DNA of 55,328 bases, taken from contig JAABTP010000001.1 of NCBI GenBank assembly GCA_011389815.1, positions 25,003 to 80,330 on the forward strand, read 5' to 3'. Below the pieces are notes generated by a model that saw nothing but the letters and a program-made list of their open reading frames with translations, ran no database searches and was not told where the DNA came from. Positions 22,732 through 54,003 of this stretch are shown here, one piece after another (the stretch's first letter is position 1; every line of letters begins with the position of its first letter). The position numbers were made by a program, and so were the translations under genes. This DNA is from Desulfobulbaceae bacterium (lineage in GTDB: Bacteria > Desulfobacterota > Desulfobulbia > Desulfobulbales > Desulfobulbaceae).

Positions 22732-22808
22732 TGGCGGGGCCGACGAGACTCGAACTCGCGACCTCCGGCGTGACAGGCCAGCATTCTAACCAGCTGAACT
22801 ACGACCCC
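22732..22808 (-). tRNA. tRNA-Asp (GTC), copy 1, CCA encoded
   Basis: Minus-strand 77 nt beginning GGGGTCGTAGTTCAGCTGG with anticodon GTC in CCTGTCACG, TpsiC GGTTCGA-type arm (GAGTTCGAGTC) and encoded CCA. Second copy at 22955-23031. Confidence 0.95.
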
Positions 22809-22818
22809 TTGAGTAATT

Positions 22819-22894
22819 TGGTGGGCGAAACAGGGCTCGAACCTGTGACCCTCGGCTTGTAAGGCCGATGCTCTCCCAACTGAGCTATTCGCCC
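22819..22894 (-). tRNA. tRNA-Val (TAC), copy 1, CCA encoded
   Basis: Minus-strand 76 nt beginning GGGCGAATAGCTCAG with anticodon TAC in CCTTACAAG, GGTTCGAGCC arm and encoded CCA. Confidence 0.95.
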
Positions 22895-22954
22895 GAAATT
22901 CATTCGGTCATTTAAAAAGGAGTTCGTGGCAGTCCACTCACTCCCTGCAATTAC

Positions 22955-23031
22955 TGGCGGGGCCGACGAGACTCGAACTCGCAACCTCCGGCGTGACAGG
23001 CCGGCATTCTAACCAGCTGAACTACGACCCC
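22955..23031 (-). tRNA. tRNA-Asp (GTC), copy 2
   Basis: 77 nt, nearly identical to 22732-22808; the cloverleaf stems are preserved. Part of a tandem duplication of the Val-Asp pair. Confidence 0.95.
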
Positions 23032-23041
23032 TTGAGTAATT

Positions 23042-23117
23042 TGGTGGGCGAAACAGGGCTCGAACCTGTGACCCCCGGCTTGTAAGGCCGATGCTCTCCC
23101 AGCTGAGCTATTCGCCC
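23042..23117 (-). tRNA. tRNA-Val (TAC), copy 2
   Basis: 76 nt, nearly identical to 22819-22894, first in the minus-strand order Val-Asp-Val-Asp. Confidence 0.95.
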
Positions 23118-36592: not shown

Positions 36593-37249
36593 TTAATACG
36601 GTCTCTTACCAGCCATATTGCCCGCAGGTGAGTAGCTGCATACCCATATCTGGGATTTATCATCACAGACTGATCTGGCACAGCCTACCTCGGTTGTCTC
36701 TTTCCAGACCACCTGGGTGTAATGGCCGCAGACACCAGAGCAACTATTATCAGAGTACTCGTAGTATTTGATTTCATTGCCCCAACTATTGGTCACTTCT
36801 TCCGGGCTGGTATCTTGTAACTCTTTCTGCCCGTCAGACCAGATAAGCGGGCTGGCCTTGAACAGGTTTTCACCGTAGCCATTATGACTGTGGTGGAATC
36901 CACAACCATCCTCCTTCAGTGTATCAGCCCAGTCCTGTGCCACATTAACCAGTTTTTCTGACCATGTGAGTTGCGGGACACCGACCTGGGAACGCCAATG
37001 ATTATGGGCCGCTGTCATGGCAGTTGGATCAACAGGGGCTTTTTCATTGGGCTGTTCTTCATTGTTTGGCCTGTTCTGGCCAGGCTCCTGTTCTTGTGAA
37101 GATTCACTGGCTGGACCAGGCTGGATCTCAGAACCTGTTAGAGGTCTTTGGGCTTGCGTTGTAGCGCATCCTGCCAGGATGACAGCAAAAAGGATAATGG
37201 TTAATGTCGTCTGTCTTTTGTGTTGGTGTAGATCTCCTTGTGTTTTCAT
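36593..37249 (-). CDS. CAP/SCP-domain lipoprotein
   Basis: 218 residues from the ATG at 37249, preceded by AGGAGGAG. Signal peptide with lipobox LAGC, so lipid-anchored in the envelope. After a Q/E/P-rich linker the CAP domain runs from ~85 to the end: HNHWRSQVGVPQLTW, CGFHHSHNGYGENL, GHYTQVVWKETTEVGCA and WVCSYSPAGN, all classic CAP signatures. CAP proteins bind lipids or act outside the cell; in bacteria the role is mostly unknown. The gene is preceded by a GEMM-like RNA leader also found in front of the neighbouring lipoprotein. Confidence 0.9.
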   Translation of the reverse strand: MKTQGDLHQHKRQTTLTIILFAVILAGCATTQAQRPLTGSEIQPGPASESSQEQEPGQNRPNNEEQPNEKAPVDPTAMTAAHNHWRSQVGVPQLTWSEKLVNVAQDWADTLKEDGCGFHHSHNGYGENLFKASPLIWSDGQKELQDTSPEEVTNSWGNEIKYYEYSDNSCSGVCGHYTQVVWKETTEVGCARSVCDDKSQIWVCSYSPAGNMAGKRPY

Positions 37250-37269
37250 GAGACTCCTCCTGGTATTGC

Positions 37270-37383
37270 AGAAGCAGGCGGCCCGGCTGTCTCCCCTCTG
37301 GAGACCCGTGGCTTTCCGACACCGCCTCACGACGGCTGTGGCTGTGTTCAAGTTTCCCGAGCCGAACACCAGAGTTCGGCTCT
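37270..37383 (-). promoter_or_regulatory. GEMM-like (cyclic dinucleotide) riboswitch leader with upstream hairpin, copy 1
   Basis: On the minus strand: a 9-bp hairpin (GAGCCGAAC / GTTCGGCTC, 37359-37382), then GCCACAGCCGTC, a GTGA tetraloop, GGCGGTGTCGGAAAGCC, ACGGGTCTCC, a short hairpin and GACAGCCGGGCCGCC. The GAAAGCC-ACGGGTCT and GACAGCCGGG blocks are hallmarks of GEMM (c-di-GMP-I/cGAMP) riboswitches. The P2/P3 strands pair. The stretch before P2 reads GCCACAGCC rather than the usual GGCAAACC, so the ligand could differ. Confidence 0.75.
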
Positions 37384-37486
37384 GACCAGAATGCTTTGTA
37401 CCCGCTATTAAAGAGCTTTGTTCGTTTTTCTCATCTCTTCTCTCTTTTTCCTCTCCCTTGATAAGGGGAAGGGCTGGGGATGGAAA

Positions 37487-38404
37487 TCAAAGACGGGCCA
37501 CAGCGACCCATTGCTGCCGTCCATTGCCAAAGGGAGGATAACTCGCTCTGGTCGGTGTCCGTTTATGCCAGTCAGTTACAGAAGCCGGTGTTTTTCCCTT
37601 TCTGCCGTATCCGTGAAAGAGTTCATAATGCACTACCTGTCCGGATGCATCTTTATGGACATTAACGACGATCCCAAGGTGAGCAATGCCTTTTTGAGGG
37701 TTGAGCAGTTCCTCTACAGAGAATTCTCTGTATTGAGATCCGTTTTTTCCAAAAAAGAGCACAGCTCCTGGCTGAAGCAGGTCAGTGCTGTCAACAGCAT
37801 TTTTGACCAGCTGCAATTTTCCCTGCTCATGATACCAACGAGCAATATCTCTGGAGTCACGGTATTTTTCAAGAGAGGGGAATTTCTTTGCCGGGCATTG
37901 GTCTTTCAGCCCCTGTACAACACGGTGAAAAATGCCAGAGCAGTCTGTTAAGGGTTGGGTAGCGTATAAGAGTGATTTCTTTTCCAGTGTATTAACAACT
38001 TCATGGAGTGGACCGGAGACATCATTCAGCCAGCATTGTGTTGACTGTTCTCCATAAGTGGTTTCTGGATAAGTGCTTTCCGGCAGAGTCGTTGTTAGTG
38101 ACTCTACCATGACCCGTGGTTCTGATATGGTGGTGGGTTGTTCAAAAGGGATGGCCCAGACAAGATCTTTTATGGCAGGATCTGTGACCTGTTCCATGAG
38201 TGGAGTACCAGAATGTTCTCCGATGGTAAGGGTTTTTTCCTCCTGAAGTGCGATTTCGGTTTGGCTGTTTGGCAGGTTCTCGTACTGTACCTGCAGATCA
38301 GTCAGCTTCTCACTCCCGCAGCCTGTAAGGGCGATAGCAGCAAGAAAGGCACCTGTAAATGCGATCAGTCCTCTGTGTTCATAAAAATCTCCTGTGGTTT
38401 TCAT
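37487..38404 (-). CDS. NlpC/P60-like lipoprotein (putative cell-wall hydrolase)
   Basis: 305 residues from the ATG at 38404 after AGGAGGAC. Lipobox TGC gives an envelope lipoprotein. The sequence PLTDCSGIFHRVVQG carries the DCSG motif of NlpC/P60 cysteine peptidases, and GIAHLGIVVNVH supplies the histidine strand (AHLGIV). PGAVLFFGKNG matches the strand before it. It probably cleaves peptidoglycan peptides. The family is divergent, so catalytic activity is not certain. The leader carries the second GEMM-like element. Confidence 0.75.
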   Translation of the reverse strand: MKTTGDFYEHRGLIAFTGAFLAAIALTGCGSEKLTDLQVQYENLPNSQTEIALQEEKTLTIGEHSGTPLMEQVTDPAIKDLVWAIPFEQPTTISEPRVMVESLTTTLPESTYPETTYGEQSTQCWLNDVSGPLHEVVNTLEKKSLLYATQPLTDCSGIFHRVVQGLKDQCPAKKFPSLEKYRDSRDIARWYHEQGKLQLVKNAVDSTDLLQPGAVLFFGKNGSQYREFSVEELLNPQKGIAHLGIVVNVHKDASGQVVHYELFHGYGRKGKTPASVTDWHKRTPTRASYPPFGNGRQQWVAVARL

Positions 38405-38421
38405 GGTGTCCTCCTGGTATT

Positions 38422-38536
38422 GCAGAAGCAGGCGGCCCGGCTGTCTCCCCTCTGGAGACCCGTGGCTTTCCGACACCGCCTCACGACGGCTGTGGCTTGG
38501 TTCAAGTTTCCTGAGCTGAACACCAGAGTTCAGCTC
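38422..38536 (-). promoter_or_regulatory. GEMM-like riboswitch leader with upstream hairpin, copy 2
   Basis: Nearly identical to copy 1 over the aptamer. The upstream hairpin is GAGCTGAAC / GTTCAGCTC (38513-38536), differing from copy 1 at paired positions (C-G to T-A), a compensatory change that supports a conserved RNA fold. Confidence 0.75.
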
Positions 38537-38540
38537 TGAC

Positions 38541-39021
38541 CAGAATGCTTTGTACCCGCTGTTAAAGAGCAGTATTGCTTTACTTATAAAAAGCATAATG
38601 CATGCCAAAGACAGGGATATGGATCGTGTTTCTCGATTTTGTGCTATTTCTGCTGTTTGTATCTGATTAGCAAGGAGTAGTTATTCTTTACTGTGAATCT
38701 ATATCCTTTTTAGTCTTGAAGGGTATATATTTTTTTTGCAAAAGTTGATTAAAGGCTGACAAAAAATGTCAGTCAAGAGCAAACGAGGGCATGCCTGGAT
38801 ATTTTGTAAACAGTTTGGCTTGATTTTTATTCATAATTGAACAATTATGATCTTGTGGCTGTATAATTTTTTTACAGTGCTTCATCTTATGTTGCATATA
38901 AAGCCAGTGAGGAGGGCACGGTGGAAAACAAGGAAAGTTATACAAGGGGGGCAGCGTTCTAAAGGCTTTGCTTTTTTGTCAGGTAAGCAATCAGTCGGGC
39001 CTGCATTGAGCAGCAGCAGAA
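38541..39021. other. 480-base intergenic region
   Basis: Upstream of the NlpC/P60-like gene and downstream of the phosphate-binding/OmpA gene. AT-rich. A small hairpin CTGACA-A5-TGTCAG (38756-38772) is visible; no gene is supported. Confidence 0.5.
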
Positions 39022-43143: not shown

Positions 43144-43258
43144 GAGGATGCAGGCATGCTTATGGGGAGGATACTACTATGCTCCTGAAGAGGATACTAC
43201 TATGCTCTTGAGGAGGATACTACTATGCTCTTGAAGAGGATGCAGGTGTGCTCTTAGG
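43144..43258. repeat. Tandem array of five 23-bp repeats
   Basis: Five consecutive 23-base units (43144, 43167, 43190, 43213, 43236), core GAGGATACTACTATGCTC; three central units are nearly identical and the outer ones diverged. 65 bases upstream of the -35 box of the DUF4469 gene. 23 is not a multiple of three, so it is not protein coding. Confidence 0.9.
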
Positions 43259-43407
43259 AAGGATGCTAGTCACGATGTGTGACATCTGCTTGTTTTGGTG
43301 CTTGTAATGCCAGTTCAAATTTCACAACTTTTAAAACGTGTTTTCATGTCGTTTTTTTACTTGCTTAATCCGGTGAATCTGTTAAGCTTTAAGAAACAGG
43401 CGGGGTT

Positions 43408-53842: not shown

Positions 53843-54003
53843 GATACCCGATACGATTTTTCCTTGCTACGCAATGCGAATTCGTCGTGATACCCGATGC
53901 GATTTTTTTGTTATACTCAATACGAACCTGTCGTTATACACTATGTGATTCTGCCGTATCGAGTATGACGAACCTGTCGTTATATGTATAACGATGCTTG
54001 AGA
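53843..54003. repeat. Tandem array with 23/46-bp periodicity
   Basis: Three 46-base units (53843, 53889, 53935) and a partial fourth, each made of two related 23-base halves. Units 1 and 2 start GATACCCGAT; units 2 and 3 end CGAACCTGTCGT. 43 bases upstream of the -35 box of paralogue B. The end encodes the C-terminus of the HExxH protein. Confidence 0.85.

Follow-up and report, generated by a model that had tools for sequence, protein, structure and literature searches.

Two nearly identical leaders on the minus strand of the window, the 55,328-nt stretch of DNA analysed here, precede two lipoprotein genes and carry an odd stretch ahead of P2, where the base that specifies the ligand of GEMM RNAs would be expected. 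What might these RNAs sense, and how might they act on the genes behind them? The original prediction described the pair as GEMM-like, and a covariance-model search bears this out. When examined with cmscan against Rfam 15, both leaders matched the c-di-GMP-I aptamer (RF01051) over the full model (positions 1-87), twin A at 38428..38506 (49.9 bits, E 7.9e-07) and twin B at 37274..37352 (49.6 bits, E 9.6e-07), well above the gathering score of 35. The two aptamers differ at only 2 of 79 bases.

Twin A lies before the gene for a 305-aa lipoprotein (37487..38404, minus strand), and twin B lies before the gene for a 218-aa lipoprotein (36593..37249, minus strand). Both products have a lipobox-like N-terminus by eye. 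The CAP domain proposed for the 218-aa product was recovered as PF00188 (E 3.9e-25). The NlpC/P60 identity proposed for the 305-aa product found no support in Pfam, NCBIfam or PDB sequence searches. Neither Pfam nor NCBIfam listed an NlpC/P60 family at E values of 10 or less, in searches where the HMMER filters drop most weak matches. This protein carries a DCSG motif and later His residues that are invariant in six aligned sequences. Its predicted fold (mean pLDDT 50, low confidence) is weakly like the Tse1/Tae1 peptidoglycan amidases, with a best Foldseek E of 0.074 (prob 0.72) and 0 matches at E <=0.001. Since no profile matches and the fold is too poor to decide, the NlpC/P60 assignment was dropped, and the protein can be called at most cysteine peptidase-like or amidase-like.

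The host is a Candidatus Electrothrix, an electric "cable bacterium", whose genome holds 21 RF01051 matches over the cut-off. All eight Electrothrix genomes, including this one, carry such aptamers (21, 27, 18, 21, 10, 9, 21 and 19; 146 in total). RF01051 is present in 41 of 73 genomes of the family, where stricter filters gave 0-9 aptamers per genome outside the genus and one exception with 25. When named genomes were scanned with a pattern derived from the host's own copies, 33 stretches were recovered, all of them in Candidatus Electrothrix, Candidatus Electronema or Desulfobulbaceae UBA5173. No report of c-di-GMP riboswitches in cable bacteria was found in one open-access library, judged by title among the matches listed. 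With 9-27 switches per genome, the genus offers a regulon that is testable on RNA alone, which matters for organisms without pure culture.

Proposed regulatory strands around the aptamer

Most leaders in the host genome share a layout. The strand CUUUCYGG lies 5' of the aptamer, a complementary CCRGAAAG follows it and abuts the aptamer, and directly behind the aptamer, on its 3' side, comes the Shine-Dalgarno (SD) sequence, CCRGGAGG or a variant of it. Because both partners are complementary to the 5' strand, this strand can pair either with its neighbor, forming a hairpin termed P0, or with the SD.

The twins possess all of these elements, again on the minus strand. In twin A, the proposed anti-SD strand UUCUGGU (38539..38545) lies 5' of the aptamer and can form seven pairs with ACCAGGA (38412-38418), which belongs to an SD region at 38410..38418 that includes AGGAGG at 38410-38415. 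The P0 hairpin spans 38513..38536, with stem strands at 38528-38536 and 38513-38521, and the lower P0 3' strand AGGAA (38508..38512) pairs with UUCU of the anti-SD strand. Farther upstream, AGCGGGU (38554..38560) complements the 3' edge of the aptamer, GCCUGCU (38427-38433), C92 included. The resulting seven-pair helix, termed PX, would occlude C92. Twin B repeats this arrangement, with a proposed anti-SD strand UUCUGGU at 37385..37391, an SD region at 37256..37264 (AGGAGG at 37256-37261; paired part 37258-37264), a P0 hairpin at 37359..37382, and the PX strand AGCGGGU at 37400..37406 with its partner at 37273-37279. Apart from a few single changes, the twin leaders are distinguished by one compensated P0 pair, which is U-A in twin A (GAGCUGAAC/GUUCAGCUC) and C-G in twin B (GAGCCGAAC/GUUCGGCUC). 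Among ten leaders of the twin type, 7 of 13 P0 pairs show changes on both sides, and the anti-SD strand varies in step with its partner, as it does in the genus set.

In neither twin does a terminator-like site separate the aptamer from the start codon, and transcription termination was therefore rejected for both. Likewise, no promoter was found for them: the region has 3 promoter-like sites where 2.5 are expected, none of them before a twin leader on its strand.

The platform analyses used 127 oriented sites of the 146 in the genus. The 19 sites of one genome (G007) were left out because its match list looks almost identical to the one from another genome (G002). Strands change in step from copy to copy in this set, for example CUUUCCGAUA with UAUCGGAAGG in L003, CUUUCUGGUA with UAUCAGGAGG in L012, CUCUGCUUUCUGGC with GCCGGAGGGUAGAG in L152, and UUUCCUGAU with AUCAGGGAG in L176, which is a leader of the twin type. 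Matched partner strands were compared with shuffled ones in four greedy non-redundant sets (n=38, 46, 65 and 86). Ungapped helices were used; earlier tests with bulged duplexes had been noisy. The anti-SD:SD helix gave z values of -4.4 to -6.2 and P0 gave -5.1 to -7.0, with 0 of 20000 shuffles reaching the observed value in each of the four sets, and P1 gave -3.4 to -3.8 (1-13 of 20000). By comparison, control values were -1.6, -0.8 and -2.1 for a reversed 5' strand (-2.1 in the largest set), -1.1, -0.9 and -0.3 for a window farther upstream, and +0.7, +0.9 and +0.7 for a coding window.

Because the pattern was first spotted in the host genome, the comparison was repeated with held-out leaders, taken from other genomes and dissimilar to all of the host's own (n=19, 45 and 66). 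Covariation persisted for anti-SD:SD (z -3.5, -4.9 and -5.6; 4, 0 and 0 of 10000 shuffles) and for P0 (z -3.1, -6.1 and -6.3; 13, 0 and 0 of 10000), and was weak for P1 (z -1.6, -2.5 and -2.5; 571, 87 and 75 of 10000). Within single genomes (G000-G006), 69, 7, 37, 6, 1172, 1200 and 256 of 5000 shuffles reached the observed value, meaning that no signal emerges from G004 or G005 alone.

Long complementarity is also common. At least nine contiguous pairs can form between the SD and the 5' leader in 65 of 116 SD-bearing sites, compared with 6.4 when leaders are shuffled and 7 when a distant window is used. Sites that fall short of seven pairs number 18 of 116 when the most stable helix is considered and 13 when the longest run is considered. 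By our rule, 11 of the 127 sites have no SD-like run. Three leaders (L013, L130 and L169) form a separate type that has no recognisable SD near the 3' end of the aptamer. PX pairing scores -10.27 with own leaders versus -8.45 (sd 0.20) with shuffled leaders. Despite this advantage, its covariation is weak (z -1.5, -2.8 and -2.9; 1302, 57 and 41 of 20000 in three sets), and PX was rejected as a general helix and kept only as a possible helper.

Predicted direction of the switch

The paired elements compete for the same bases in most copies. The P0 3' strand and the P1 5' strand share at least two bases in 119 of 127 sites, the P0 5' strand and the best anti-SD helix share at least four bases in 85, and both overlaps are present in 84. 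The twins fall outside those 85, with top-scoring helices that used other bases.

Folding was modelled for 110 of the 127 sites, the other 17 having been dropped for a start codon too near or too far or for want of a closing pair. When the aptamer and P1 were enforced, SD pairing with the 5' region rose from 0.32 to 0.74, versus 0.31 to 0.56 with the leader of another site and 0.19 to 0.32 with a shuffled leader. This pairing increased by more than 0.2 in 73 of 110 sites with their own leaders versus 35 of 110 with shuffled leaders. Mean SD exposure is low in both folds (0.31 free and 0.17 enforced); it is lower by more than 0.1 in the enforced fold at 58 sites and higher at 3. In the twins, the SD pairs more with the 5' region once the fold is enforced (0.23 to 0.61 and 0.03 to 0.59). 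Their SD exposure barely moves (0.28 to 0.20 and 0.31 to 0.31), since the SD is already paired with other bases in the free fold. Twin P1 is weak, and the enforced fold shows its closing pair only.

Due to the strands shared by P0, P1 and anti-SD, and to the rise in SD pairing in the enforced fold, ligand binding is predicted to turn these genes OFF. Without ligand, the strand upstream of the aptamer, CUUUCUGG or, in the twins, UUCUGG, would be held in P0 by the GGAAA(G) that follows, and in about half of the copies, twins included, an AGCRGGU strand could hold the 3' edge of the aptamer. The SD would then be available. On binding, c-di-GMP would fold the aptamer and close P1, drawing the P0 3' strand into P1 and opening P0. 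The freed 5' strand would pair with the SD just beyond P1, and translation of the envelope lipoprotein would stop. If the twins behave like the rest of the set, and if the strand exchange is suitably timed, they are probably c-di-GMP-I switches that control translation through a platform that surrounds the aptamer instead of following it. Our confidence in this reading is slightly reduced by the shuffled-leader control and by the mixed platforms of relatives. Expression platforms have been reviewed (PMC10907184), and no 5' anti-SD platform for c-di-GMP riboswitches was found in the open-access literature, judged by title among the matches listed.

The same aptamers might instead be ON switches, in which c-di-GMP breaks a ground state that hides the SD, much as ligand binding to the aptamer of terminator-type relatives would keep their repressive hairpin from forming. 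Among 20 sites sampled from three other Desulfobulbaceae genomes (G072, G053 and G022), 16 pair the aptamer 3' strand with a terminator under a strict rule, and the remaining four (L237, L238, L241 and L243) look similar by eye, with the T run or the stem broken. A terminator built with this strand implies that the ligand switches expression ON, as has been described for pilM, a cGAMP switch (PMC9262584). Moreover, the free fold of the twins already pairs the SD with other bases, and PX could pair with the aptamer 3' edge. However, the anti-SD:SD helix is nested outside P1 and would be favoured, rather than broken, when the aptamer closes: of the 110 modelled sites, none lost more than 0.2 of this pairing, and it rose in 71. 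The strand common to P0 and anti-SD:SD in 85 of 127 sites also fits an OFF switch. We therefore consider ON control of the twins unlikely.

Ligand-contact bases, their variants and the putative regulon

The ligand contacts of the Vc2 RNA are G20, A47 and C92 (PMC4744006; PMC3764141), and its highly conserved positions include G20, C22, A23, A25, C44, G45, A47-A49 and C92 (PMC3764141). Read against the RF01051 alignment, all three contacts are retained in both twins, at 38496, 38469 and 38432 in twin A and at 37342, 37315 and 37278 in twin B (minus strand; counted from the alignment). The listed conserved positions are kept as well, the GNRA tetraloop is GUGA, and C44 is present. The odd stretch before P2 that drew attention to this locus, GCCACAGCC, is real. 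Once placed in register it reads G20 C21 C22 A23 C24 A25 onward, and the ligand-contact G20 is thus unchanged. Its departure from GGCAAACC consists of a compensated flip of pair 21-46 to C-G, plus A24 to C. Positions 21, 24 and 46 are absent from the highly conserved positions of PMC3764141.

These features are shared across the genus. Among the 127 sites, G20 is present in 124, A47 and A48 in 127 each, and C92 in 120; pair 21-46 is C-G in 126, C24 occurs in 122, and a GUGA or GCGA tetraloop and C44 are each found in 126. The flipped pair is also frequent outside the genus, being present in all 20 sites sampled from the three other genomes and, by our reading, in 16 of 23 further sites of the family.

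Rfam also holds a separate model for c-di-GMP-I-GGC RNAs (RF03167), which is not the reported match of the twins. Two other leaders of the host genome, L001 and L002, do match it (62.4 and 63.3 bits versus a cut-off of 59) and keep A47. GEMM-Ib cGAMP riboswitches carry an A at position 20, a mark that is absent from the twins, both of which have G20.

The original prediction held that a changed ligand preference was possible. On this reading, the flipped pair and A24C would shift recognition to cGAMP or c-di-AMP. The altered core is near-universal in the set, cGAMP-type GEMM RNAs exist in Geobacter (PMC6456294), and a GGDEF protein with a Hypr residue is encoded in all 8 genomes. However, G20A is the change that enables cGAMP binding in this class, and G20A/C92U the one tied to c-di-AMP (PMC6274999, PMC7288161). 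Because the twins are canonical at all three contacts, the flip is frequent in relatives, and positions 21, 24 and 46 are outside the conserved list, a new ligand for the twins is unsupported and highly improbable. Judged by their sequence, the twin leaders are ordinary c-di-GMP-I aptamers and members of RF01051 in an unusual setting.

The same idea does fit two other leader groups represented in the host genome. A20 is present in 3 of 127 sites, L009 (host genome), L139 and L206, which precede similar products. U92 is present in L007 (host genome), L141, L156, L184 and L199, whose products again resemble one another, as well as in L160 and L168. The small secreted proteins encoded behind L007 and L009 are related to each other (37% over 54 aa, pair E 2e-12). 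By inference, a natural aptamer with G20 and U92 would be a candidate for cGAMP binding; alternatively, U92 may do no more than tune PX.

A possible source of cGAMP can be named. The host genome has 10 GGDEF and 4 EAL matches, and the selectivity residue can be read by motif in six of the ten GGDEF loci: it is Asp in five and Thr in L214, where GGDEF is intact. Proteins of this Thr type (L214/L220, G000:C222:56504-57775; L221-L227) carry GHHAGT, are apparently membrane-bound, and are encoded in 8 of 8 Electrothrix genomes. In Hypr proteins, the cGAMP synthases, this residue is Ser or Thr (PMC9140294), and it goes only with GGDE[F/Y] (PMC6456294). We tentatively suggest, as a possibility that is more doubtful than the OFF switch itself, that two cyclic-dinucleotide circuits use one riboswitch family, one in which c-di-GMP acts OFF via the 5' anti-SD strand, with a sign opposite to that of the terminator-type relatives, on genes whose recognisable products are envelope or secreted proteins, and another in which the A20 and U92 groups, each by its own base change, have moved to cGAMP fed by the Thr-type Hypr GGDEF. 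Together, these leader groups and the Thr-type protein make cGAMP signalling in cable bacteria directly testable.

Nine leader products other than the CAP lipoprotein were tested, and four reach a Pfam cut-off, representing RHS repeats (two), fn3 and PEP-CTERM; five do not. In the fn3 example (L145) the anti-SD helix is weak, and for the PEP-CTERM product (L122) the frame was taken to begin 70 bases past the aptamer. Many leaders precede short frames. Some of these (for example L115, L128, L163 and L168) have an N-terminus in common with longer proteins (L185 and L161), and such N-termini are possibly duplicated leader-plus-signal pieces, some of them decayed. Three leaders (L019, L172 and L200) have, by eye, a small inverted repeat of the GTATCC...GGATAC type just past the start codon. 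Elsewhere in the window, tRNA-Asp and tRNA-Val genes alternate twice in a row (22732-23117), and tandem repeats with units of 23 and 46 bases occupy 43144-43268 and 53843-53957.

That the whole collection is a set of decaying repeats, in which copies of leader DNA have spread through the genome and most no longer function, would suit the many copies that precede frames of 20-100 aa with related N-termini and the host copy L004, which by eye has no start codon at the usual place, but it is very unlikely because compensated changes in P0 and anti-SD:SD and the presence of A47 and A48 in 127 of 127 sites point to selection, and because leader-bearing orthologs occur in six of six other genomes examined for the 305-aa gene and in two of six for the CAP gene, which was sought only with its leader.

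Comparison with relatives and known systems

Arrays of c-di-GMP-I aptamers have been described before. As in the Bc3-5 triple-tandem c-di-GMP riboswitch (PMC4759541), several such aptamers lie near one another at this locus. Unlike the tandem arrangement presented in that work, each twin has its own gene. A triple array does exist as a separate locus in another Electrothrix genome, where L131, L132 and L134 (G002:C1 about 4928718-4929063) follow one another at a spacing of about 130 bases and, by eye, terminator-like sequences separate them.

The Geobacter GEMM-Ib switches for cGAMP share the aptamer fold and belong to a related second-messenger system. In contrast to these RNAs, the twins have G20, and the 127 sites include A20 only in the three leaders named above. 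The GEMM-Ib representative upstream of pilM is a transcriptional ON switch (PMC9262584).

The twins also resemble Vc2 of Vibrio cholerae, a GEMM-Ia representative of RF01051. They share with it a full-length match, G20, A47, C92, the GUGA tetraloop and C44. They differ from it in the C-G pair at 21-46, in A24 to C and A43 to U, and in a proposed regulatory strand that lies 5' of the aptamer and pairs with an SD 3' of it.

Among their own relatives, the terminator-type switches of Desulfobulbaceae have the same C-G pair at 21-46 (20 of 20 sites) and very similar P2 and P3. Those RNAs, with a terminator that uses the aptamer 3' strand, are predicted to be transcriptional ON switches, whereas the cable-bacteria set is predicted to consist of translational OFF switches. 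Platforms elsewhere in the family are mixed: in some of the 23 further sites, L084 and L103 among them, the aptamer is followed by an SD with no evident terminator. The 5' anti-SD layout can be seen by eye in four Electronema leaders and in one from UBA5173, all found with the strict pattern. Given the terminators of the sampled relatives and the 5' anti-SD strands of these five leaders, the rewiring seems to be a feature of the cable bacteria and to accompany a predicted change of sign, as judged from a sample rather than a survey. If true, a 5' regulatory strand with a predicted sign opposite to that of the sampled relatives would represent a natural rewiring of an expression platform in which the sensor has been kept.
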